Assembly: GCA_902537415.1 (NCBI GenBank)
Contig: CACBBC010000007.1
Span: 1-64,000 of the forward strand
Length of the DNA: 64,000 nt
Source: an uncultured Alphaproteobacteria bacterium
GTDB lineage: Bacteria > Pseudomonadota > Alphaproteobacteria > Rhodobacterales > Rhodobacteraceae
Reading direction: 5' to 3'
Shown here: piece after piece, positions 2,409 through 15,599 of the stretch
How the letters are laid out: each line of letters begins with the position of its first letter
Position numbering within the stretch: position 1 is the stretch's first letter
The notes under the pieces: model-generated
The model's database searches: none
Seen by the model: only the letters and a program-made list of their open reading frames with translations
What the model was told of the DNA's origin: nothing
Program-made: the position numbers and the translations under genes

Positions 2409-2846
2409 TTGAATTTGGTTGAAAATATAAACTCAAAAGAAGCTTTTGACCTTCTAAAAGAAGATAGAAACGCTGTGTTGATAGATGTAAGAACCAACAA
2501 AGAGCATTTGGAAGTTGGAATACCTGACTTAAGAGAGATCGGTAAAGATACCTTTAAAATAGAATGGAGAAACTCGATCTTACCGGGGTCACGCAAGCGC
2601 TTTTTAAATGATTTTAACAATAATTTAAGCCATCATGACCAAGGAAAGTATCTTTTTATATGTAGATCTGGAATTAGATCAAATTTCGCTGCATTAACTG
2701 TGGAAGAATCGTTTAAATCCGGTAATTATAATGGTATGTGTTTTAACATTGAGGATGGATTCGAGGGATTTGAACAGCCTTCAGTCTATCCACATAACCC
2801 AACCGGATGGAAGAACTTGGGCTTGCCCTGGAGTAGAGTTGATTAA
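2409..2846 (+). CDS. Rhodanese-like domain protein overlapping dnaA
   Basis: A single rhodanese domain of 145 residues, the family of sulfurtransferases that carry sulfur on an active-site cysteine. The N-terminal part has LIDVRTNKEHLEVG (about 24-37), and the catalytic loop CRSGIRS places the cysteine at 85. The C-terminus (DGFEGFE, then GWKNLGLPWSR) matches an alphaproteobacterial subgroup. The start is TTG at 2409 with a weak CAGG upstream. The stop codon shares one base with the dnaA ATG, so the two are probably translationally coupled. A rhodanese gene in this position is not something I recall as standard. The substrate is unknown. Confidence 0.85.
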   Translation: MNLVENINSKEAFDLLKEDRNAVLIDVRTNKEHLEVGIPDLREIGKDTFKIEWRNSILPGSRKRFLNDFNNNLSHHDQGKYLFICRSGIRSNFAALTVEESFKSGNYNGMCFNIEDGFEGFEQPSVYPHNPTGWKNLGLPWSRVD

Positions 2847-4211
2847 TGAACAAAGATGAGTGGTCAAAGGTTAAAGAGTTTGTAAAGAGCAATATAGGTG
2901 AAAGTGCTCACGCTAACTGGATACAACCCATTGAGCTAAAGGAGATTAACGGTTCTGTTGCAAAGTTTAAAGTGCCAACAAGATTCATTGGTACTTGGGT
3001 TCATAGGAACTACGGAGATCACATTATCCAAGGATTTAAGAATCAAAAACTAAGGATCGATAGACTTGAGTTTATTGCATCGTCAGATAAAACAGCAGGA
3101 AAAAAAAATGTTTCAGAGAAAAGAGCACTGAAAAGAACTGACCAAAAATCTCAAGAATCTCAGCTTGATCTACCCAGTTCACCACTTGATGCCAGGTTTA
3201 CCTTCGATAAATTTGTGGTCGGAAAACCAAATGAGTTGGCACATGCAGCTGCAAAAAAGAGTTTCAGATGGGGGAAAGGTAACTTTCAATCCTTTATTTT
3301 TGTATGGAGGTGTTGGTCTAGGAAAAACGCATCTAATGCACGCCATTGCTTGGTCTACCAAAGAAAAAAATAAAAGAGCGCGAATACTATACCTCTCAGC
3401 CGAACAGTTTATGTATAGATTCGTTCAAGCTTTAAGATTTAAGGACATGCATGCGTTCAAGAAGCTATTTAGGTCAGTGGATGTTTTGATGGTAGATGAT
3501 GTTCAGTTCATAGCGGGGAAAGACTCAACACAAGACGAATTTTTTCATACCTTTAATGCCCTTATAGAGCAAGGAAAACAAATAGTCATATCGGCTGATA
3601 GAGCTCCCGGTGAAATTGATGGTTTGGAAGAAAGAATTAAATCTAGACTTGCTTGGGGTCTTGTTGTCGACGTGCACCCTACAGACTATGAATTACGCCT
3701 AGGAATTTTGCAGGCTAAAGCTGAAATACAAATGGAACTGAATAGAGACGTTAAGATTGATGAAGGTATATTAGAGTATTTAGCTCATAAAATTTCTTCA
3801 AATGTTAGGGTGCTAGAGGGAGCTCTGACAAGGTTATTCGCTTTTGCATCTTTGGTGGGAAAAGAAATAAACATTGATTTAGTTCAGGAATGTCTATCAG
3901 ACATACTTAGAACTTCAGAGAGAAAAGTTACTATTGAAGAGATAATAAGAAAAGTTGCTGAACACTACAACCTTAGAATGACAGACTTGATATCTGCAAG
4001 AAGAGCAAGGGTGGTAGCTAGACCCAGACAGATAGCTATGTTTTTATCTAAAAGTCTCACTTCAAAATCTCTTCCAGAAATTGGAAGAAAATTCGGTGGA
4101 AGAGACCACACCACTGTGATTCACGCGGTCAAGAAAATCGAAGAATTAAAACTAGTTGATGTACAGGTGGCAGACGAGGTGGAAATCTTACGCAGAACAC
4201 TTGAGGCATAA
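2846..4211 (+). CDS. dnaA: Chromosomal replication initiator DnaA, interrupted by a one-base frameshift
   Basis: DnaA binds oriC and melts it to start replication. Domain I ([14 protein letters not shown], tryptophan-rich) and the linker are in one frame to about base 3259. The AAA+ core ([13 protein letters not shown] Walker A near 3300, VLMVDDVQF Walker B) and the C-terminal box-binding domain ([14 protein letters not shown]) are in the +1 frame to 4211. The switch is at the A6 run 3253-3258. With one A removed the protein reads [14 protein letters not shown] without a break and has 454 residues, a normal DnaA length. As written, the upstream frame gives 175 residues with a wrong tail and the main frame lacks its start. 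dnaA is essential, so a homopolymer sequencing or assembly error is the likeliest cause. Confidence 0.93.
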
Positions 4212-5418: not shown

Positions 5419-6498
5419 ATGAGTTCTGCCGGAATAGAAAAACTCAAAATCAGTAATTTCAGATCGTATAAAATTTTACAACTCTCCTTTGATTCAAACC
5501 CTACTGTTATTTATGGAAAAAACGGAGCTGGAAAAACAAACCTTTTGGAAGCTATATCACTCTTATACCCGGGCAAGGGGATAAGAAGGTCTAGCTTTCA
5601 TGATATGATAAATCTATCTAATAAAAATTCCTGGAAAGTTGAGGCTGTAGTTCACCGAAACAATAATATTTTTGAAATCGAGACTTCTAGTGACGGAAAT
5701 GGAAGAGCTGTAAGAATAGATGGAAAAAAAGTACCACAGAATAATCTTAGTTCGAGTTTAAAAATTTTATGGTTTTTACCACCAATGGATAGGATCTGGA
5801 TGGAAACCTCTAAGGACAGAAGAAAATTCTTAGATAGAATGGTATTTAGTCTTGATATTAACCACGCAAAAAGATGTACTCAATATGAAAAACTTCTTAG
5901 AGACAGGAATAGGTTATTAAAAGATCATGTAGAAGACAGCTCTTGGTATCTTGCTATCGAAAAGAAAATGGCCACACTTGGGTTTGAAATACATAATTGT
6001 AGACGGGATTTCATCAGAAAGCTTAATAAAGTTTTAATCGAAAAGAATAATTATTTTCCGCTGATTAAGCTTAATATGAAAGATGACATTATTGAAAGCG
6101 AACAAGTATTCTTGAAAAATTTAATTGAACGAAGAAGACAGGACCTATTATCTGGCAGAACAAATTTTGGCCCTCATACAGATGATCTACAAGGCTTTTA
6201 CTTAGAGAAGGAAATAGATACAAAATACTCTTCTACAGGTGAGCAAAAACTTTCGATCATTTCCATTATTCTATCCAATGCGAAATTGATTAAAGAACAG
6301 CACAAAGTCTCTCCCATTATGCTTTTGGATGAGATAACAGCTCATTTAGATGAAGTACGCAAAGAAAACTTATTTTCAGAACTGTTATCTTTAGAAAGCC
6401 AGTTTTTTATTTCAGGAACGGAGATGGGTATATTTAATTCCTTAAGCAAAAAAGCGAGATTTTTGGAATTGGAAGAAAGGAAAAAATTTGTCGCCTAG
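5419..6498 (+). CDS. recF: DNA replication and repair protein RecF
   Basis: A SMC-like ATPase that helps load RecA at single-strand gaps. The 359 residues carry Walker A YGKNGAGKTNLLEA (about 33-46), an ABC-type signature SSTGEQKLSI and Walker B IMLLDEITAHLDE. It starts 15 bases after dnaN, so the two are likely co-transcribed. The last four bases overlap the end of a minus-strand FMN dehydrogenase gene. gyrB, the usual next gene in this cluster, is absent here. Confidence 0.96.
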   Translation: MSSAGIEKLKISNFRSYKILQLSFDSNPTVIYGKNGAGKTNLLEAISLLYPGKGIRRSSFHDMINLSNKNSWKVEAVVHRNNNIFEIETSSDGNGRAVRIDGKKVPQNNLSSSLKILWFLPPMDRIWMETSKDRRKFLDRMVFSLDINHAKRCTQYEKLLRDRNRLLKDHVEDSSWYLAIEKKMATLGFEIHNCRRDFIRKLNKVLIEKNNYFPLIKLNMKDDIIESEQVFLKNLIERRRQDLLSGRTNFGPHTDDLQGFYLEKEIDTKYSSTGEQKLSIISIILSNAKLIKEQHKVSPIMLLDEITAHLDEVRKENLFSELLSLESQFFISGTEMGIFNSLSKKARFLELEERKKFVA

Positions 6499-7646
6499 TT
6501 TTTCTCAAAGAAAGGACAATCTTTAATGATATCTCTACCAACGTCTTTTATGTCTCGTCTTCCGCACAGTGCCATTGTCATATCAAGTTCCTTATTGAGA
6601 ATTTCCAAAGATTTTGTAACTCCTTCTTTTCCTCCGGCTGATAGTCCGTAAACAAAGGACCTACCAATCATTACACCTTCAGCTCCCATTGCAATAGCCT
6701 TGAGGATATCCTGTCCAGATGAAATCCCACCATCCATTAAAACCTCCATATTAGATACTGCTTTCTTTATTTCAGGAAGCGTGGAAATTGAGCTATTTAC
6801 CCCATCTAATTGCCGGCCGCCATGATTAGAAACCACTAAAGCGTCTGCACCACACTTCTGTGCCATTTTAGCGTCATCTGGGTCCATTATACCCTTAATA
6901 ATTAGTTTGCCTCCCCACCAGTCTTTAATTCTTTTTACGTCGTCCCAATTAAGTCTTGTATCGAATTGATCCTGTACCCATTTGGTTAAAGAGTTTAGAT
7001 TAGTGATATCTTTTACATGACCCATAACATTTCCAAACGTCCTGTTTTTTGTTCTAGCCATTTGATAGCACCAGCTAGGTTTCGACAATAAGTCGAAAAG
7101 GTTAGACAATTTTATCTTCAATGGTATTGATAAACCGTTTCTTATGTCAGCGTGCCTTTGACCTAGTATTTGTAAGTCTAAAGTAAGTACTAGTGCAGAG
7201 CATTGCGCTGCTTTTGCTCTTTCAACTAATCGCTTAGCAAAATCATGGTCTCTCATAACATAGAGTTGAAACCAGAAAGGCTTTGATGTATTCCTTGCAA
7301 CCTCTTCTATCGAACATATTGACATCGTAGAGAGAGTGAAAGGAACGCCAAAGCCTTCAGCAGCCTGAGCCGCCAATATCTCACCATCGGCTCTTTGCAT
7401 ACCAAGTGAACCGACGGGCGCAAGAGCAACTGGCATTTTATATTCAACGCCTAATAAACTCTTTTTAGTGGTTCTATTAGATATATCGACCGCAACTCTT
7501 TGTCTAAAGGAAATTTTTTGAAAATCATTCCTATTATTTTTTAAAGTGGTTTCAGTCCAAGATCCAGATCTTACGTAGTCATGGAACGCTTTGGGTACTT
7601 TTTTCTTTGCTTTGTATTTTAAATCGTCAATAGTTAGATATTCCAT
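6495..7646 (-). CDS. FMN-dependent alpha-hydroxy-acid dehydrogenase/oxidase (LldD/GOX family), paralogue 1
   Basis: Oxidises a 2-hydroxy acid such as lactate, glycolate or mandelate to the keto acid, passing electrons to quinone or oxygen. The 383-residue TIM barrel has the family catalytic set: Tyr24, Tyr129 in WFQLYV, Lys251 in LIIKGI, His275 and Arg278 in SNHGGRQLDG, then DGGISSGQDILKA for the FMN phosphate. The N-terminal DYVRSGSWTE differs from the common DYIDGGA form, marking a subtype of unknown substrate. It is the last gene of the seven-gene minus-strand cluster, 12 bases after the CoA-binding gene. Confidence 0.88.
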   Translation of the reverse strand: MEYLTIDDLKYKAKKKVPKAFHDYVRSGSWTETTLKNNRNDFQKISFRQRVAVDISNRTTKKSLLGVEYKMPVALAPVGSLGMQRADGEILAAQAAEGFGVPFTLSTMSICSIEEVARNTSKPFWFQLYVMRDHDFAKRLVERAKAAQCSALVLTLDLQILGQRHADIRNGLSIPLKIKLSNLFDLLSKPSWCYQMARTKNRTFGNVMGHVKDITNLNSLTKWVQDQFDTRLNWDDVKRIKDWWGGKLIIKGIMDPDDAKMAQKCGADALVVSNHGGRQLDGVNSSISTLPEIKKAVSNMEVLMDGGISSGQDILKAIAMGAEGVMIGRSFVYGLSAGGKEGVTKSLEILNKELDMTMALCGRRDIKDVGRDIIKDCPFFEKN

Positions 7647-7658
7647 GCGGTACTCTTT

Positions 7659-8123
7659 CTAAATTTTAAGGTCTAATCTGGGCTTCCAAAAAGGACGAAA
7701 TAATTCAATCTTAGGACATCTGTTCATGACAACTTTTAATCCTGCATTTTTTGCTATCTCTGCAGCTTCGTCATCATACACTCCTATTTGACCCCAAAGT
7801 ACTTTTGCTTTTATTTCAATTGCTTCTTTTGCTACCGATAAAAGCTCTTCTTTCCTTCGAAATACCTGTACCATATCAACAGGTTTGTCTATTTGCTTTA
7901 GACTGTGAAAGACCTTAAGACCTCTAATCTCTTTAATACTGGGGTTCGGGTTAACAGGCAACATTTGATATCCAGTTTCATGCAGTACCCTTAGAACACC
8001 ATAGCTAAATTTTGTCTTATCCCCACTAGCCCCAACCATGGCAATTGTTTTTACAGATTTTAGAATGTCTTCGATATAACCTTTGGGATAATTGTATATG
8101 TGGTCTACATCAGCTTCGGGCAT
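7659..8123 (-). CDS. CoA-binding domain protein (YccU-like)
   Basis: A small stand-alone Rossmann-fold CoA-binding protein of 154 residues. The nucleotide-binding part is TIAMVGASGDKTKFSYGV (about 27-44), followed by YQMLPVNPNP and the KVLWGQIGVYDDEAA and VMNRCPKIE segments shared with YccU homologues. The family's precise function is not established. The start ATG shares one base with the ferredoxin stop, so translation is coupled. Its place in the operon suggests a CoA- or acyl-CoA-linked step or regulation, which is inference. Confidence 0.85.
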   Translation of the reverse strand: MPEADVDHIYNYPKGYIEDILKSVKTIAMVGASGDKTKFSYGVLRVLHETGYQMLPVNPNPSIKEIRGLKVFHSLKQIDKPVDMVQVFRRKEELLSVAKEAIEIKAKVLWGQIGVYDDEAAEIAKNAGLKVVMNRCPKIELFRPFWKPRLDLKI

Positions 8124-8497
8124 TACTTCTCTCTTTCTTTTTTTGCAATGTCATCCTTTAGTTCATGAGGCTCCAAAGGATCTAAAAATGGATTTCTGTA
8201 AAGCTTGTCATGACTCTCAACACCAATTTCAAGAATAATATTCGACTTAGGTCTTGCTACGCAAAGTATAATGTATCCATCATTTATCTGTCTATTATTA
8301 AGTGCCACCTGCCTTCTTTGATCTACTTCTCCATCAATAAGTTTTGCAGCACACGTTATACATCCTCCATACTTACAACCATACGGTAAATCAACGCCTT
8401 GTTGCCTCAAGCTATCAAGCAATGGACGCTGATCTCCAACTTTATAGGATTTACCACGTCTATTTGATATTTCGACCTGAAATGTTTTCACAGCCAT
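8123..8497 (-). CDS. 2Fe-2S ferredoxin, plant/oxygenase type
   Basis: An electron carrier of 124 residues. The cluster-binding motif is C-x4-C-x2-C-x29-C, seen as Cys41, Cys46 and Cys49 in YGCKYGGCITCAAKL and Cys79 in ILCVARP. This is the pattern of ferredoxin domains that serve oxygenases and reductases. Its start overlaps the end of the SBP56 gene by ten bases and its stop overlaps the CoA-binding gene by one, so it is tightly embedded in the operon. No dedicated ferredoxin reductase is nearby. Its electron partner is not evident; the neighbouring oxidase is one candidate. Confidence 0.9.
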   Translation of the reverse strand: MAVKTFQVEISNRRGKSYKVGDQRPLLDSLRQQGVDLPYGCKYGGCITCAAKLIDGEVDQRRQVALNNRQINDGYIILCVARPKSNIILEIGVESHDKLYRNPFLDPLEPHELKDDIAKKEREK

Positions 8498-9843
8498 ATA
8501 TCACTAGTGCAATCGCCACCGGGATATCTACTTTCATGACATCGGCTTGGGCCATTTGGTTCTTCCCCAAAGTTTACCATAAAATCAGGATTAATTTTCA
8601 TCCCTCCGTTTACTGGGTCACAGTCAATCATTATCAATACACCACCCTTTTCCCTTATATCTGGATAAAATTGATTGTCCCAAGTAGAAAATAGAGAAGT
8701 TGTTACGTACAGTCTTTTCCCATCTAGGCTGAGCTGAAACATTTGTGGTCCTCCGGCAATCTTAAGACCATTAACTTCAGGAGCTCTTCCCAGTAGACCA
8801 CCCATCCAAACTTGACCAGTAAGTTTTGGCTTGTGAGGGTCTGATATATCATATTGCCTCATATCACCGTGCAGCCAATTATTAAGATATAAATATTTAT
8901 CATCCATTGAAACGAGAATTGCTGACATCACACCTGGGATAGGAATTGGCCAGTCCGGGTGAGGTTGGTTTTCTACATCAATAATTTTTTCCCATTTCCA
9001 TTTTTCATTTTTGTCTTTCCACCAATGTATCACGTTTGCGCTTAGTGCTGCACCGCAAAACCCATGACTGCTATCTGGATTATGGTGAAATTTTACTTCT
9101 AAAGGAACGAGACCGTCTTCACCCAAATACATAGTTTCAATTGGCTTGCGTTCCTTGAAATCCCAGAAATGGAGTTGTCTCCCATACTTGAGGTGCCCAA
9201 CTTCTTCTAAATCAAAGCCCGGCATAAATGTGTTGGGAGCAGCCCACTCCGATGAAACCATTATATTGTGTCTTGGTTGATACCAAAAATCATACCCAAA
9301 TGGTATATCTCCCATTGAGTTTTCCCATCTTCCTATAATTTCGAAATTTTTATCCAGATGCAAATATCCTCCAGGTGCTTCTCCCTTTGCATCACCCAGC
9401 ATAGATATAATTATTTCTGAGCCCAGGCAATGGACGGTATGTGGGCCACTTAAGTTGGTTTTTGATTTAATATCTGCTCCGTCAATAACTTTGTGTAGAG
9501 TGGGCATTCTAGGATTAGTCGCAGTATCCACTATGTGAATATTATTTGACCTCACTCCCGGAAGTAAAAGATATTTGCGGGTCATGCTAGAGTCGTCATG
9601 GCAAGATGAACACGCATTCCATCCCATATGATGAAGTTCATCACCAATGCCTGGCATTTCTAACCTATGTATAACTTTCGAATAAGTAGGGCTAGCGGGG
9701 TCAACATCGACTGTAGCTAAATAGTCAGGCTTTTGTATTCCCGTTCCTGTATATATTGCAATTGTATATAAAAGTTTCTCCCTCGGTGCTTTTATAGCTT
9801 CTGCAGGGGACGAATATCCAGGACCACAACACGTTTCATTCAT
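8488..9843 (-). CDS. Selenium-binding protein 56 family, probable methanethiol oxidase
   Basis: SBP56/SELENBP1 family protein. Characterised bacterial (MtoX) and human members oxidise methanethiol with O2 to formaldehyde, H2S and H2O2. The 451 residues begin MNETCCGPGYSSP and include HHMGWNACSSCHDD (His71, His72, Cys78, Cys81), GPHTVH (His135, His138) and the C-terminal signature HESRYPGGDCTSDIW (His436, Cys445). These histidines fit the copper ligands proposed for MtoX. No signal peptide is seen, whereas the Hyphomicrobium enzyme is reported periplasmic. SCO1- and MauG-like genes often reported beside mtoX are absent; rhodanese, ferredoxin and a GFA protein are the neighbours instead. Family certain, substrate inferred. 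Confidence 0.88.
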   Translation of the reverse strand: MNETCCGPGYSSPAEAIKAPREKLLYTIAIYTGTGIQKPDYLATVDVDPASPTYSKVIHRLEMPGIGDELHHMGWNACSSCHDDSSMTRKYLLLPGVRSNNIHIVDTATNPRMPTLHKVIDGADIKSKTNLSGPHTVHCLGSEIIISMLGDAKGEAPGGYLHLDKNFEIIGRWENSMGDIPFGYDFWYQPRHNIMVSSEWAAPNTFMPGFDLEEVGHLKYGRQLHFWDFKERKPIETMYLGEDGLVPLEVKFHHNPDSSHGFCGAALSANVIHWWKDKNEKWKWEKIIDVENQPHPDWPIPIPGVMSAILVSMDDKYLYLNNWLHGDMRQYDISDPHKPKLTGQVWMGGLLGRAPEVNGLKIAGGPQMFQLSLDGKRLYVTTSLFSTWDNQFYPDIREKGGVLIMIDCDPVNGGMKINPDFMVNFGEEPNGPSRCHESRYPGGDCTSDIWL

Positions 9844-9846
9844 AGT

Positions 9847-10245
9847 TTATTCTTTCGTTTCAATAGGATTTCCAGATTTTTTCCATGCGGCAAATCCTCC
9901 CTCTAGATGAGATACGGGGCTCAGACCCATGTCTTGTGCTGCTTTGGCTGCAAGAGCAGATCGGCCAGCTGCAGCACAATAAAAAACATATTTCTTGTCT
10001 TGGTTAAAAATTTCTTTGTGGTAGGGGCTATTAGGGTCTATCCAGAATTCGAGCATTCCTCTAGGGCAAGAGAACGAATTTGGAATTTTTCCTTCTCTTT
10101 GTATTTCTCTAGGGTCTCTTATATCTACAAAAACGTACTTACTATCTTCGAAATATTTTGAAGCATCAACTACAGGTGTTATTTCAACCTCTTTATTTGC
10201 CTCATCTACCATATCTTTCACATGTTTTACAATTTTTTGTGCCAT
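9847..10245 (-). CDS. Rhodanese-like sulfurtransferase in the SBP56 operon
   Basis: A single rhodanese domain of 132 residues. YVFVDIRDPREIQREGKIPNS (split over about 37-57) is the typical entry, and FYCAAAGRSALAA gives an active-site loop with Cys90. A helical N-terminal stretch (about 1-25) precedes the domain. It lies three bases upstream of the SBP56 start and 20 after the GFA gene, on the same strand. If the SBP56 protein releases sulfide, a rhodanese could take up sulfane sulfur from it; that link is inference from position. It is unrelated in detail to the rhodanese gene next to dnaA. Confidence 0.88.
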   Translation of the reverse strand: MAQKIVKHVKDMVDEANKEVEITPVVDASKYFEDSKYVFVDIRDPREIQREGKIPNSFSCPRGMLEFWIDPNSPYHKEIFNQDKKYVFYCAAAGRSALAAKAAQDMGLSPVSHLEGGFAAWKKSGNPIETKE

Positions 10246-10265
10246 TTTGTCTATTCCTTCCTATT

Positions 10266-10673
10266 TTAAGAGAAGTTTTTCTGAAACTGATCTAAACTTA
10301 CATCTATTTTAATTGAGGGTATTTTTTTTGATACCCAAACGTCTCCTTGTGGTTTTATCATCTCTAATTCATTTACAGTTCCTGCATGTATCCTCACTAA
10401 TCCAGGTCTACCTTCATTTAAGGAGAACATCTGACAACCGCATTGATCGCAAAACTTTTTAGTTATTTTGTTGCCACTTTCTGATTGATGTACGTAGCTT
10501 TTTAAAGTCCCTTGAATATGTAAATCGCCTTCTTTCACAAATATATTGGTAAGATAAGGGGCACCACTACATTTTCTGCAGTCCTCGCAATGACAGTTAA
10601 AAGTCCTTAATGGTGAAGTGTTACTGTTATACGTTACAGCTCGACATAAGCAGCTTCCGGTGAATCCTTTCAT
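10266..10673 (-). CDS. GFA / CENP-V family zinc protein
   Basis: A glutathione-dependent-formaldehyde-activating (GFA) fold protein of 135 residues. Zinc-binding cysteines are clear: Cys8 and Cys10 in GSCLCRAV, Cys27, Cys29, Cys32 and Cys35 in NCHCEDCRKCSG, and Cys75, Cys78 and Cys80 in FCDQCGC. Many family members have no proven formaldehyde activity. I prefer the ATG at 10673 because AAGG lies just upstream and homologues start close to the first cysteine pair; an in-frame ATG at 10736, overlapping the SDR gene, would add 21 residues. Beside a putative methanethiol oxidase that would yield formaldehyde, a role in formaldehyde or S-adduct handling is tempting but inferred. Confidence 0.82.
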   Translation of the reverse strand: MKGFTGSCLCRAVTYNSNTSPLRTFNCHCEDCRKCSGAPYLTNIFVKEGDLHIQGTLKSYVHQSESGNKITKKFCDQCGCQMFSLNEGRPGLVRIHAGTVNELEMIKPQGDVWVSKKIPSIKIDVSLDQFQKNFS

Positions 10674-10720
10674 CTCTACCTTTTCTCTATTTATCATAAC
10701 TCGACTCATTGGTCTTAAGT

Positions 10721-11428
10721 TCAAGAGTTTATCCATCCACCATCAACATCAACAGTGGTTCCGTTAACAAAATCATTTTCAATAACAAAGATAATTCCTT
10801 TTGCAACCTCATCCGGTTTTCCAGCTCGCTTTATTGAGTGAGATGCTGTGGCTGAACTTAGAAATAGTCGTCTATCCTCACCTTTTTGTGAAAACATAGG
10901 CGTATCTATTAAGCCTGGCGCTACAGAATTTATTCTCTTTGGAGCAATTTCGTTTGCAACACCTCTAACTAGGTTCTCAACCGCGCCTCCAACAGCAGAA
11001 AGAGCAATTTGTCCAGGCTTCATTCGCCTCGCAGGTGCGCCACTGACTAAAACTATTGTTCCATCCGAGCTTAAATAGTGTGTGCCATAGCGAACAACAT
11101 TGGCGTAACCCCATAATTTATCAAAAGAGTTTTTAAAGCCAGTCATATCCATTTCTAGAAATGGGCCAGCTGCTCTGCTTCCTCCAGTTGCAGCACTTAC
11201 CAAGATTTCGAAGGGAGCATGTTTTTGAAAAATATTTTTTACTTCCTCTTCAATTCTTACATCACAGCTTTCAAAGGATAGTTTGTTGTGTTTAACACTA
11301 GTCGCCTTGCTTGGGTCTCTGCTGATGGCAATAACGTCTGCACCTTTTTCAATTAATTGTTCACATGTAGAGAGCCCGATTCCAGAAGTTCCACCAAATA
11401 CGAGGGCTTTTTTATTCGCTATGTCCAT
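10721..11428 (-). CDS. Short-chain dehydrogenase/reductase lacking the Tyr-Lys pair
   Basis: A 235-residue SDR with a Rossmann nucleotide-binding motif VFGGTSGIGLS (10-20) and the C-terminal GGWI characteristic of classical SDRs. Ser129 sits at the catalytic serine position. However, the Tyr-x3-Lys dyad is replaced: the aligned stretch is IALSA at 141-145, with Ile for Tyr and Ala for Lys. The usual NNAG motif is replaced by VSAATGG. It may bind NAD(P) without normal oxidoreductase chemistry or use another base. It is the first gene of the minus-strand cluster; the GFA gene follows on the same strand. Confidence 0.85.
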   Translation of the reverse strand: MDIANKKALVFGGTSGIGLSTCEQLIEKGADVIAISRDPSKATSVKHNKLSFESCDVRIEEEVKNIFQKHAPFEILVSAATGGSRAAGPFLEMDMTGFKNSFDKLWGYANVVRYGTHYLSSDGTIVLVSGAPARRMKPGQIALSAVGGAVENLVRGVANEIAPKRINSVAPGLIDTPMFSQKGEDRRLFLSSATASHSIKRAGKPDEVAKGIIFVIENDFVNGTTVDVDGGWINS

Positions 11429-12484: not shown

Positions 12485-13420
12485 ATGATAAGTAGAAAGG
12501 CTAAAAACAGAAAAAAGGTCATATCTTTTGTCATGAGACTTGTGACTTTAATTAAACCTGGAAGCCTTAGCCATTTTCAGATTAAAATAATGCGATTGCT
12601 TGTTTTATTTGCATCCTTTAGAAGAGCAAACGTAAACAATGTCGTCGTGAAAAAAATATCTTTAGATCAGCTTGAGCTATATCGGATTATACCAAATAAG
12701 ATTTCTGATAAAGTAAAGATATTATTCTTTCATGGGGGTGGGTTTTTTGTTGGTAACTTTAAAATTTATCGAAGTTATATATCTTTTTTTGCGGAGATCC
12801 TCGGCAGAGAAATTATATTTGTTGAATATAAACTCAGTCCTGAGTCAAAGTATCCAAGCCAATTAGAAGATGCAAAAAAAGCATACTCTTTTCTTTTAGG
12901 AAAAAAAGAAAAATCCAGTATTATCCTTGCTGGTGATTCAGCTGGCGGCAATTTAGCACTAGCATTATTTTTAGCACTGAAAAAAGACAAATCAAAAAAA
13001 CCAAAAGGAATATTCTGTATTTCTCCTTGGGTTTATCCAACTGCTATAATGGCAGAATATCCAGATAGTTGCTGTCAAAGTGATGTACTACTAGGACCAT
13101 TTATAAAACGTGCAAAAGAAACAGGTTCTGGTCCTTTATCCTATCTCTATTGCAATCCATCAGATCATAAAAACCCCTTCATTTCACCTTTATTTGGCGA
13201 CTTTAAAAATTCACCACCAATTATGATCCAATATGCAGAAAATGAGATTCTTTCAGTACAGATTGGGCAGTTTTTAAAACGACTAAAAAAGCAAAGAGTC
13301 AAAGTGGTAATAAAAACCTGGAAAGACCTATGGCATGATTTTCAGCTCGAAACAGATTTAGTTGAGACTCGTAGGTCTTTCGTACTTTTCAAGGACTTTC
13401 TTGATGAACTATGCACTTAA
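12485..13420 (+). CDS. Alpha/beta hydrolase, HSL-type esterase
   Basis: Hydrolyses carboxyl esters. The 311 residues contain the oxyanion motif FFHGGGFFVGN (about 81-91) of the hormone-sensitive-lipase group, the nucleophile elbow AGDSAGGNLAL, and a late histidine in LWHDFQ; an acidic residue near AENEILS completes the expected triad. It lies 15 bases after the DMT gene. The last four bases overlap the end of the convergent PhyH gene. Physiological substrate unknown. Confidence 0.85.
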   Translation: MISRKAKNRKKVISFVMRLVTLIKPGSLSHFQIKIMRLLVLFASFRRANVNNVVVKKISLDQLELYRIIPNKISDKVKILFFHGGGFFVGNFKIYRSYISFFAEILGREIIFVEYKLSPESKYPSQLEDAKKAYSFLLGKKEKSSIILAGDSAGGNLALALFLALKKDKSKKPKGIFCISPWVYPTAIMAEYPDSCCQSDVLLGPFIKRAKETGSGPLSYLYCNPSDHKNPFISPLFGDFKNSPPIMIQYAENEILSVQIGQFLKRLKKQRVKVVIKTWKDLWHDFQLETDLVETRRSFVLFKDFLDELCT

Positions 13421-14304
13421 ACTTTATCTTCGCCTGCTTGGGCCGCGTAAATAGAAGTGTACCCTCCTGACCAGTCGGGGGGCATCTGGCAAGGTCTTGG
13501 ATCATGGTGTGCCCATTTTACCTGCTCTCCCCTTACAATTTTATATGTGTTCACGGTTGGTTGTGGGTGAGGTGTATATGCTTTAGCGTCAGCAGATGTA
13601 TAACAATTAAGTAAAAGTGGTCTGGGATTTTTAGATTTCGAAGATGGTGAGAAATGAAGTGCTCTTGCGTTATGTATTGTTATAGATCCAGCATTTCCAG
13701 TAAGATAGTCAACCATCGACATATCAACAGTATTTGCGTCTTCATCGCTTAACATCCCTGTCCAATTACCATTTTTGTCGTACTGATCATATAGGTCATT
13801 TTTATGTGAACCTTTTAACACGGCTAAAGGCCCATTGTTCATATCAGTGTCCTCTAAATAACACCCAATTGTCAAAACATTGTAATTTGTATGGGGAAAG
13901 AATTGGATATCCTGATGCCACTTAACAGTGTCACTTTTGTCATACCACTTAAAGTTTAATTTTGAGTGATGAAATGTCACATTTGGACCAACAAGGTCAC
14001 TAGCAACGTCAGCCATTAGACCCTTTGAGAAATTCCAATACTCATCATGATTCTCATCTGGACTCTTTAACCTTCTAAGTACCGGGTTCTCGTAAGAATG
14101 TCCTGGACCAATATCAAAAACATTATTTGACTCCGTGACCACGCGACTTTTTTCAACGAACTCACTTGTAACTTTTTTGATAAGTTTTAGTGTATCCGAC
14201 GGAACTAAGTCTTTTATTCCTACGAACCCAAACTCAAAATAATGTTCCCTCTGCTCCTGAGTTAAGATTTTGGGTGGATAAGATAAAATTTCTTCTGGTG
14301 TCAT
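13417..14304 (-). CDS. Phytanoyl-CoA dioxygenase (PhyH) family oxygenase
   Basis: Fe(II)/2-oxoglutarate-dependent dioxygenase family, 295 residues. The N-terminal YFEFGFVGIKDLV is the usual PhyH entry. The iron ligands are visible as WHQDIQFF (His-x-Asp) and a distal histidine in TIHNARALHFSP, and the RPLLLNCY strand may supply the 2-oxoglutarate-binding arginine. Family members act on very different substrates, so no precise substrate is claimed. It is convergent with the esterase gene and divergent from the CoA-transferase gene (104 bases between starts). Confidence 0.88.
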   Translation of the reverse strand: MTPEEILSYPPKILTQEQREHYFEFGFVGIKDLVPSDTLKLIKKVTSEFVEKSRVVTESNNVFDIGPGHSYENPVLRRLKSPDENHDEYWNFSKGLMADVASDLVGPNVTFHHSKLNFKWYDKSDTVKWHQDIQFFPHTNYNVLTIGCYLEDTDMNNGPLAVLKGSHKNDLYDQYDKNGNWTGMLSDEDANTVDMSMVDYLTGNAGSITIHNARALHFSPSSKSKNPRPLLLNCYTSADAKAYTPHPQPTVNTYKIVRGEQVKWAHHDPRPCQMPPDWSGGYTSIYAAQAGEDKV

Positions 14305-14408
14305 GTTTAAACTCTAATAAAAATCTTCTCTCAGGCTTCTTAAATTTAAGTTGCATCTTCAAGGTTAACAGCTCATATTTTAGTGTAAATATTTTTCTGG
14401 AGGTTTTT

Positions 14409-15599
14409 ATGGCTGGTGCTTTAAAAGGGATAAGAATAATCGATTTAACCTCGATGATTTCAGGTCCAAGTGCAACGATGATACTGGGAGACCAGGATGC
14501 TGAAATCATAAAAATTGAAAATACTTCAGTTGGAGATTATACTAGGATTGTCAGCACCCAGAGATCTGGAATTTCAGCCGCCTACCTAAACAACAATAGA
14601 AATAAGAAATCTGTGTGTATTGATCTAAAAGCGGAGGAAGGAAAAAATATCCTTAAAAAGCTTATTGGAACGGCAGACGTTCTAGTGCAAAACTTCAGAC
14701 CAGGGGTAATGGATAGGTTAGGTTTCGGATATAGCGATGTTCGTGCGATAAGTCCTAACATTATATATGTTTCCATAAGTGGCTTCGGTTTTACTGGCCC
14801 TTATAAGAACAAACCAGTTTACGATCCTCTTATTCAAGCTCTATCCGGTCTAACCACTGTACAAGCAGGATCAGATGAAGAGAGACCGAGGCTTATGCGA
14901 ACGATACTTCCTGATAAGCTTACTGGGTTCGCTACCGCTCAGGCGATAACAGCGGCACTGTTCCACAAGGCAAAAACAGGTGAGGGTCAGGAAGTCAAAA
15001 TATCAATGCTAGATGCTGTAATTTCTTTTTTGTGGGGTTCTGATATGGGAGGGCATACCTTTGTTGGAGACGAACTTGAAAAGGAGACCGCACAGAGTTT
15101 TATTGATCTAATATATGAAACTAAAGGGGGCTTTATATCTGTTGCAGTACAGTCCGATAAAGAATGGTTTAATATTTGCGATGCATTTAATAAGAAAGAG
15201 TGGTTAAGTGATCCGAGGTTTTTGACTGCGGAATTAAGGCATCAGAATATAAATGAAAGACTAGAATTGATACAATCTGAGCTTAAGAAAAAAACATCCG
15301 ATGAATGGTTGAAATTGCTAACGGCTAAAGATGTTCCTTGTGCACCCGTTTTGACAAGAAAAGAAATGATAAAGAATGAACAAGTAGTTGCAAATGATAT
15401 AATAAAAATTTCTGAACACCCTATTGCAGGAAAGATACGGCAGTCTAAGTTAGCGGCTAGCTTTTCCGTAACCAATAAAGATGACAATTTGTCAGCCCCA
15501 ACACTTGGTCAGGATACTAAGTCAGTTCTTTCAGGATTAGGCCTTACAGAATTGGAAGTTGATAGATTGCTTAGTGATAAAATAATTAAGGGCAGTTGA
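14409..15599 (+). CDS. CaiB/BaiF family (type III) CoA-transferase
   Basis: Transfers CoA between an acyl-CoA and a free acid. The 396 residues begin MAGALKGIRIIDLTSMISGP, the standard family N-terminus, then VLVQNFRPGVMDRLG and YVSISGFGFTGPY. MLDAVISFL carries the aspartate expected to form the acyl-anhydride intermediate. The ATG at 14409 is preferred over an in-frame start 73 codons upstream because GGAGG lies just before it and the extra residues do not resemble the family. It is followed by a candidate small RNA and a strong terminator. Substrate unknown. Confidence 0.9.
   Translation: MAGALKGIRIIDLTSMISGPSATMILGDQDAEIIKIENTSVGDYTRIVSTQRSGISAAYLNNNRNKKSVCIDLKAEEGKNILKKLIGTADVLVQNFRPGVMDRLGFGYSDVRAISPNIIYVSISGFGFTGPYKNKPVYDPLIQALSGLTTVQAGSDEERPRLMRTILPDKLTGFATAQAITAALFHKAKTGEGQEVKISMLDAVISFLWGSDMGGHTFVGDELEKETAQSFIDLIYETKGGFISVAVQSDKEWFNICDAFNKKEWLSDPRFLTAELRHQNINERLELIQSELKKKTSDEWLKLLTAKDVPCAPVLTRKEMIKNEQVVANDIIKISEHPIAGKIRQSKLAASFSVTNKDDNLSAPTLGQDTKSVLSGLGLTELEVDRLLSDKIIKGS

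Follow-up and report, generated by a model that had tools for sequence, protein, structure and literature searches.

What is the seven-gene block beside the replication genes of this uncultured alphaproteobacterium for, and which of its genes belong together? The window, a stretch of 64,000 nucleotides, carries at 6495-11428 seven open reading frames (ORFs) on the minus strand, which in the order of transcription encode a short-chain dehydrogenase (SDR), a GFA-fold protein, a rhodanese, an SBP56 protein, a [2Fe-2S] ferredoxin, a coenzyme A (CoA)-binding protein and a flavin mononucleotide (FMN)-dependent hydroxy-acid dehydrogenase. A sequence-only reading of the window had taken the seven genes together as a possible marine methylsulfur oxidation pathway, an interpretation that our analysis supports in part. 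The block is probably an operon for the disposal of methanethiol, built around a transferable core of three genes, with the SBP56 protein acting as a copper-type methanethiol oxidase of a clade distinct from MtoX, in a genome that demethylates dimethylsulfoniopropionate (DMSP); among the loci searched, the seven-gene order was met in the genus only. The conserved unit appears to be the SBP56, ferredoxin and CoA-binding genes and not the seven-gene block, and the sequence-only reading had overlooked the latter two as its conserved part. Neither the enzyme family nor its link to methanethiol is new. No account of the three-gene core as a conserved unit was found in those parts of the open-licence full-text literature that were consulted.

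A core of SBP56, ferredoxin and CoA-binding genes

An SBP56 alignment, run against 84,980 species genomes, gave at least 584 relatives, of which we kept the best 80 as loci. These were picked by SBP56 alone and are not independent, 11 coming from the window's own genus and 22 from SAR11. Among these best 80, a ferredoxin motif lies downstream of SBP56 in every locus, its first cysteine at most 150 bases from the SBP56 stop codon in 78 and further off in two. The CoA-binding gene is present in 79 of the 80, and in the exception (L096) the locus sequence ends about 450 bases past SBP56. When the own-genus and SAR11 loci are set aside, both genes accompany SBP56 in 47 of 47 loci; in SAR11 the counts are 22/22 for ferredoxin and 21/22 for the CoA-binding gene. 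The hosts of the core include SAR11, Roseobacter, SAR116 and Granulosicoccaceae; Phaeobacter inhibens P30 and Ruegeria arenilitoris are laboratory Roseobacters that have it.

A tree of 57 SBP56 proteins, made by a quick method with no bootstrap, places each of three clades, A, B and C (MtoX-like), on one side of a branch, with Shimodaira-Hasegawa-like approximate likelihood ratio test (SH-aLRT) values of 96, 99 and 100, respectively, and the window protein falls in clade A. A second set of loci, from searches of relatives, order, class and phylum, partly overlaps the 80 (L022 and L076 are one gene). By BLAST, clade A in this set has the ferredoxin in 31/31 loci and the CoA-binding gene in 28/31, and neither gene was found in the fetched flanks (up to 1.5 kb) of 44 clade-B and nine MtoX-like rows. 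The clade-B number is 48 rows labelled B minus four that hold clade-A genes, either broken or at the end of a contig (L024 and L030 from a single locus, L158 and L159); the MtoX-like number is 10 rows minus a clade-B fragment (L028), and L029 and L175 among them are one gene. Because the three genes stay together across the loci, chance is ruled out for the core; chance adjacency of the ferredoxin and CoA-binding genes was rejected on these conservation counts and on the absence of both beside the other SBP56 clades.

Identity of the window SBP56 to that of the 69 loci outside the genus is 86-89%, and to most clade-A genes of further proteobacterial genomes in the second set 84-88%, while DnaN identity for seven sampled hosts is 59-60% (three Rhodobacterales), 44% (SAR116) and 37% (three SAR11). 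The core is also carried on the conjugative plasmid pP30_b of Phaeobacter inhibens. With SBP56 so much more alike than DnaN, and with a conjugative plasmid among the carriers, transfer of the core between lineages would be the most economical explanation; the high identity could also come in part from a slowly evolving SBP56. Clade A also includes proteins from haloarchaeal plasmids and one from a Rubrobacter plasmid. A ferredoxin is annotated directly downstream of SBP56 in four of the seven annotated haloarchaeal records (Halocatena, Natronorubrum aibiense, Haladaptatus and Natronococcus) and not in the other three (Haloterrigena, Natrinema salinisoli and Natronorubrum bangense); an eighth, unannotated record has no ferredoxin motif.

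Variants of the arrangement were also seen. A second CoA-binding gene, about 40% identical, directly follows the first in 20 of the 22 SAR11 loci (e.g. L098 and L083). In the scanned representatives, the SAR11 core (L104, 1531-17000) has methyltransferase, Rieske oxygenase, kinase-like and cytidylyltransferase-like genes upstream, and genes for a flavin adenine dinucleotide (FAD)/GcvT protein and for electron-transfer flavoprotein downstream. In an uncultured Roseovarius (L099) the genes run SBP56, CoA-binding, ferredoxin, rhodanese, Blh-like, with a second SBP56 gene (40% identical) about 4.5 kb on. On a plasmid of Paracoccus seriniphilus (L206), a DUF2182 gene follows the SBP56-ferredoxin pair in place of the CoA-binding gene, and a glutathione-dependent formaldehyde dehydrogenase gene lies near the pair (8128-9291). 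In Natronorubrum aibiense (L211), the pair is followed by a gene for a pyridine-nucleotide FAD oxidoreductase (6829-7881), possibly a ferredoxin reductase.

The seven-gene block and its host

The host is a marine bacterium related to Roseobacter. Its genome assembly comes to 1.61 Mb at 65% completeness and falls in a group with uncultured marine Alphaproteobacteria that include isolate AG-899-B02 and MED-G56, of which MED-G56 bears the label Rhodobacteraceae. The seven co-directional, closely spaced genes that the sequence-only reading had described were all confirmed as ORFs, and a Pfam scan bore out the family names of all seven products (Table 1). Gaps of no more than 47 bases, as it had given, also hold, with a qualification: in transcription order the called ORFs are spaced by -16, 20, 3, -10, -1 and 12 bases, and the value of 47 arises if the GFA protein starts at Met22 (ATG, 10673). 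This later start is likely, since a GFA ORF was called in ten own-genus loci and is clear of the SDR gene in seven of them. The block adjoins dnaA-dnaN-recF (named from their translations); the last gene, for the FMN dehydrogenase, overlaps the convergent recF by 4 bases, and 87 bases separate the first, the SDR gene, from a divergent EamA gene. A scan of the block for promoter-like and terminator-like sites found it no richer than shuffled sequence, so it is spacing and conservation only that point to co-transcription of the seven genes.

Table 1 Features of the seven-gene block in the window (all on the minus strand)
Feature	Position	Strand	Evidence
SBP56 protein of clade A (SELENBP1-like), predicted methanethiol oxidase, 451 residues; core gene 1	8488-9843	-	PF05694, 686.9 bits (gathering threshold 34), residues 5-451
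Cys445 codon, in GGDCT	8509-8511	-	Motif reading; counterpart of the cysteine reported to form Cys-S-S-CH3 (PMC10936201)
His135-His138 codons (HTVH)	9430-9441	-	Putatively equivalent to H137/H140 of the SELENBP1 copper pocket
Plant-type [2Fe-2S] ferredoxin; core gene 2	8123-8497	-	PF00111; CX4CX2CXnC ligands C41, C46, C49, C79
CoA_binding_2 (YccU-like) protein; core gene 3	7659-8123	-	PF13380, 125.3 bits (gathering threshold 22.8)
Single-domain rhodanese, accessory	9847-10245	-	PF00581; active-site Cys90 (CAAAGR)
GFA-fold protein, nine cysteines; mainly a genus-level addition	10266-10736	-	PF04828, 109.7 bits
Short-chain dehydrogenase (SDR); genus-level addition	10721-11428	-	PF13561/PF00106
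FMN-dependent alpha-hydroxy-acid dehydrogenase; genus-level addition	6495-7646	-	PF01070; NCBIfam PRK11197, 415.3 bits (cut-off 376)

The gene order is well kept among close relatives. The SBP56 gene occurs in 20 of 22 genomes of the genus, and 17 of these 20 keep the seven-gene order, with every gene at least partly covered by the fetched flanks of 1.5 kb. The GFA gene is missing in two of the 20 (L020 and L021), and one (L019) is cut short by the end of its contig and carries a GFA fragment in inverted orientation. For loci outside the genus, a BLAST search (69 loci) and a profile search (the same 69 plus 12 plasmid loci) did not meet the seven-gene order as a whole and found scattered homologues of its outer genes: GFA in one locus (L075), the FMN dehydrogenase in one (L084, more than 5 kb from the core) and SDR in two (L082 and L209, distant, more than 1.5 kb from SBP56). 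Since so few GFA, SDR and dehydrogenase homologues occur in the outside loci, the seven-gene order appears to be a trait of the genus, and these three genes appear to be mainly its additions. A widespread seven-gene pathway was rejected on the same searches.

Two further features of the surroundings were noted. The dnaA gene reads as two ORFs, 2846-3373 and 3165-4211, which overlap and differ in frame (region 2846-4211), perhaps through an assembly or amplification indel. PhyH-family dioxygenase and CaiB-like genes lie divergently near the block (13417-15599), a position kept in most own-genus loci with enough flank.

Predicted activity of the SBP56 protein and its partners

The window protein is the one SBP56 member found in its own 65% complete assembly. 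It has the three cysteines C78, C139 and C445, in the motifs GWNACS, HTVHC and GGDC(S/T), by which cluster 1 of the family is defined (GWNACS, HTV(I)HC and GGDC(S/T)); the last of these cysteines is reported to form Cys-S-S-CH3 (PMC10936201). The same paper reports the expression of three enzymes from Rhodobacteraceae; each of them oxidised methanethiol with release of sulfane sulfur but no H2O2 (Cao et al. 2024, PMC10936201), and formaldehyde was quantified for at least one of them, RpMTO (PMC10936201). The first two cysteines are separated by 61 and the last two by 306 residues in 134 of 138 clade-A rows, and by 64-65 and 313-316 residues in 45 clade-B rows (duplicates included in both counts). 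By published cysteine numbers, the methanethiol oxidase (MTO) RlMTO (64/316, C76) belongs with clade B, and RdMTO of Roseobacter denitrificans (WP_011568565.1; 61/305) resembles clade A and matches no clade-B row; the placement of RdMTO uses these numbers in place of its sequence.

The copper pocket of human SELENBP1 is described in a review as H137, H140, D189 and E252 (PMC11394908). H135, H138, D185 and E249 of the window protein are putative counterparts of these residues by spacing, the human sequence not being aligned, and are invariant in 12/12 clade-A and 6/6 clade-B representatives; the second pocket histidine is Tyr or Phe in 5/5 MtoX-like representatives. Taken together, the motifs and residues support a methanethiol role for the window SBP56. 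It has no evident signal peptide and is probably cytosolic.

The partner proteins have conserved residues as well. The ferredoxin has a conserved C-terminal tail in addition to its cluster ligands, and the CoA-binding protein, which has solved relatives (2duw and 1iuk), combines a conserved C-terminus with a single cysteine, Cys136, that at least 97% of 82 proteins share. The two tails may serve specific contacts. In the rhodanese, Cys90 of the catalytic loop (FYCAAAGR) is shared by at least 95% of 29 rows, among them those of the own genus. The sequence-only reading had linked a rhodanese to methanethiol oxidase, and this was borne out by homologues near the core in 12 of the 47 loci outside the genus and SAR11. 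Its choice of H2S and peroxide as products does not agree with the Rhodobacteraceae assays cited above (PMC10936201); the assayed relatives release sulfane sulfur, and therefore a rhodanese fits.

A formaldehyde or C1 step had been suggested for the GFA protein. As a formaldehyde enzyme by family membership the protein was rejected, scoring 23 bits against the cut-off of 234.55 for S-(hydroxymethyl)glutathione synthase (TIGR02820). Its absence from two of the 20 genus genomes and the formaldehyde dehydrogenase encoded elsewhere in the genome also speak against such a step. Its nine cysteines are conserved within the genus. In favour of some link is the GFA gene of L075 (3205-3648; 147 residues, Pfam GFA 76.2 bits), which is upstream of SBP56 and on its strand, a single CitE-like gene separating the two, a hint that GFA-family proteins can join the core independently.

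The genomic context offers both a source of methanethiol and outlets for its products. The DMSP demethylase gene dmdA scores above its cut-off in 20 of 22 genus genomes, with two copies in the window's own genome. Glutathione-dependent formaldehyde dehydrogenase does so in 16 of 22, and in the own genome (606.5 bits) it is encoded on another contig, as is a 298-residue Blh-like protein (348 bits). On pP30_b, a divergent IclR gene is followed by SBP56, ferredoxin, CoA-binding, rhodanese, Blh-like metallo-beta-lactamase (367.1 bits, cut-off 625), enoyl-CoA hydratase, acyl-CoA synthetase and DmdA-like (377 bits, cut-off 410) genes. Within flanks of up to 8 kb, the 47 loci outside the genus and SAR11 carry near the core IclR in 21, rhodanese in 12, DmdA or DmdA-like in seven, Blh-like in four, hydratase in four and ligase (acyl-CoA synthetase) in three. 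The DmdA-like neighbours of L071, L087, L088, L090, L097 and pP30_b score 359.7-377 bits, under the cut-off of 410, and that of L080 scores 534.8 bits, above it; that of L058 was left out of the scoring, and a longer SAR11 relative gave 239.5 bits. All 22 SAR11 loci have a hydratase homologue, usually 60 bases upstream of SBP56.

From these data we infer the following sequence of events. Methanethiol from DMSP demethylation would form a mixed disulfide on Cys445, and O2 chemistry at a copper site made by H135, H138, D185 and E249 would split the C-S bond, with formaldehyde and a protein persulfide as the products. The ferredoxin would be a dedicated electron-transfer partner, serving either the copper centre itself or its maturation, and would fill the place held by the SCO1/MauG genes beside MtoX. 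The CoA-binding protein may take or release the sulfane sulfur, possibly as CoA persulfide via Cys136; the rhodanese would hand it on, and the Blh-like persulfide dioxygenase encoded elsewhere in the genome would oxidise it. A bolder version, which we offer as possible and rather doubtful, is that clade-A SBP56, ferredoxin and CoA-binding protein form a three-component methanethiol oxygenase, in which electrons from reduced ferredoxin reach the copper site for a monooxygenase-like use of O2 and the CoA-binding protein brings the released sulfur, as CoA persulfide, to the rhodanese and the persulfide dioxygenase. It would be a mobile, unrecognised module of SAR11, Roseobacter and SAR116, with the SBP56-ferredoxin pair in some haloarchaea.

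Several observations weigh against a methanethiol operon on a three-gene core. None of the clade-A proteins could be matched by sequence to an enzyme that has been assayed, and RdMTO is placed in the clade by cysteine spacing, one residue off the usual clade-A value. Membership of MtoX was rejected for the window protein (NCBIfam equivalog NF052453, 159.8 bits against a cut-off of 650). Three clade-A loci with SBP56 identities of 63-67%, deep in the clade, have no CoA-binding gene, a motif search found no ferredoxin motif in four of eight haloarchaeal loci or beside the Rubrobacter gene, and a looser one found a ferredoxin-like motif 873 bases downstream of SBP56 in one clade-B locus (L182). 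Recombinant cluster-1 enzymes consumed methanethiol with neither ferredoxin nor CoA-binding protein added, as reported (PMC10936201), and the partners would therefore tune, protect or mature the enzyme and not be strictly needed in vitro. Blh matches are under the family cut-off of 625 in all 22 genus genomes, the best covering the dioxygenase half only. DMSP-type neighbours occur in a minority of loci. In six (L056, L060, L066, L075, L084 and L089) a gene for a CitE-like lyase, whose CitE/RipC-like family was read from the L075 member only, lies directly upstream of SBP56, and further loci carry aldehyde dehydrogenase, iron alcohol dehydrogenase or CaiB genes near the core; the wider context varies because such neighbours replace the DMSP-type ones.

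The substrate of the core might be another small thiol or thioester, such as a CoA-linked or C3 mercapto compound presented by the CoA-binding protein, with methanethiol as a side substrate. That a CoA-binding protein belongs to the core would suit this, as would CoA-metabolism neighbours such as the hydratase of 22/22 SAR11 loci, the CitE-like lyase of six loci and the acyl-CoA synthetase of three of the 47. Hydratase, ligase and DmdA-like genes together, however, resemble the DMSP route that releases methanethiol, and cluster-1 enzymes with the same cysteines are active on methanethiol itself in the assays reported (PMC10936201), so that we consider another main substrate improbable. A different role for the partners carries more weight with us, although we still think it somewhat unlikely: the ferredoxin and CoA-binding protein may assemble or repair the oxidase cofactor outside turnover, by copper loading or by forming a tryptophan-derived quinone, as is thought for SCO1 and MauG with MtoX. 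We know of no cofactor-assembly role for a CoA-binding protein, which counts against this. Trp227 and Trp388, which would suit such a quinone, are invariant in 12 clade-A and five MtoX-like representatives, and these columns may match the published RpMTO numbers. In its favour, too, MtoX operons are described as carrying SCO1/senC and mauG (PMC5739008), and a Pfam scan of ten window proteins, those of the operon among them, found neither.

That the seven genes are neighbours by a chance of genome streamlining, with SBP56 alone of importance, is very improbable. The confinement of SDR, GFA and dehydrogenase genes to the genus, with a few distant exceptions, and the dispensability of GFA are what such a view would expect, and it may hold for these three genes. 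For the core the conservation counts speak against it, since the ferredoxin and CoA-binding genes accompany SBP56 across distant genomes, whose DnaN identity is only 37-60%, and on a plasmid.

Among the main products of DMSP demethylation is methanethiol, the fate of which in SAR11 and Roseobacters has yet to be settled. The trio may help to explain how SAR11 and other ocean bacteria deal with methanethiol: its fixed partner genes provide a genetic handle on C-S cleavage and on the destination of sulfur and electrons, and SBP56 followed by ferredoxin and CoA-binding genes is a marker by which ocean surveys can tell this clade from mtoX.

Comparison with known systems

The Rhodobacteraceae cluster-1 MTOs (RdMTO and RlMTO; PMC10936201) share the SBP56 family and the three cysteine motifs with the window protein, and the cysteine spacing of RdMTO fits clade A better than clade B. 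The paper treats single enzymes, and in its main text operon, rhodanese and ferredoxin do not appear and partner genes are undiscussed. MtoX of Hyphomicrobium and Ruegeria pomeroyi (Eyice et al. 2018, PMC5739008) has the SBP56 family and the methanethiol role in common with the predicted oxidase, and an IclR-type regulator gene is found near R. pomeroyi mtoX, according to the same source, as it is in 21 of the 47 core loci. MtoX-like proteins are about 27-28% identical to the window protein and form a separate clade, in five of five representatives of which Tyr or Phe replaces one pocket histidine; the accessory genes are different ones. SELENBP1/mtoX has been reported from SAR116 genomes (PMC12262181). 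The copper-pocket H, H, D and E of human and plant SELENBP1/SBP1 have putative counterparts at matching spacing in the window protein. To our knowledge, these eukaryotic genes are not part of such clusters. The window operon itself has no dmd gene of the DMSP demethylation pathway (DmdABCD/AcuH); dmdA is present in its own genome, and in some relatives DmdA-like, ligase and hydratase genes lie near the core.

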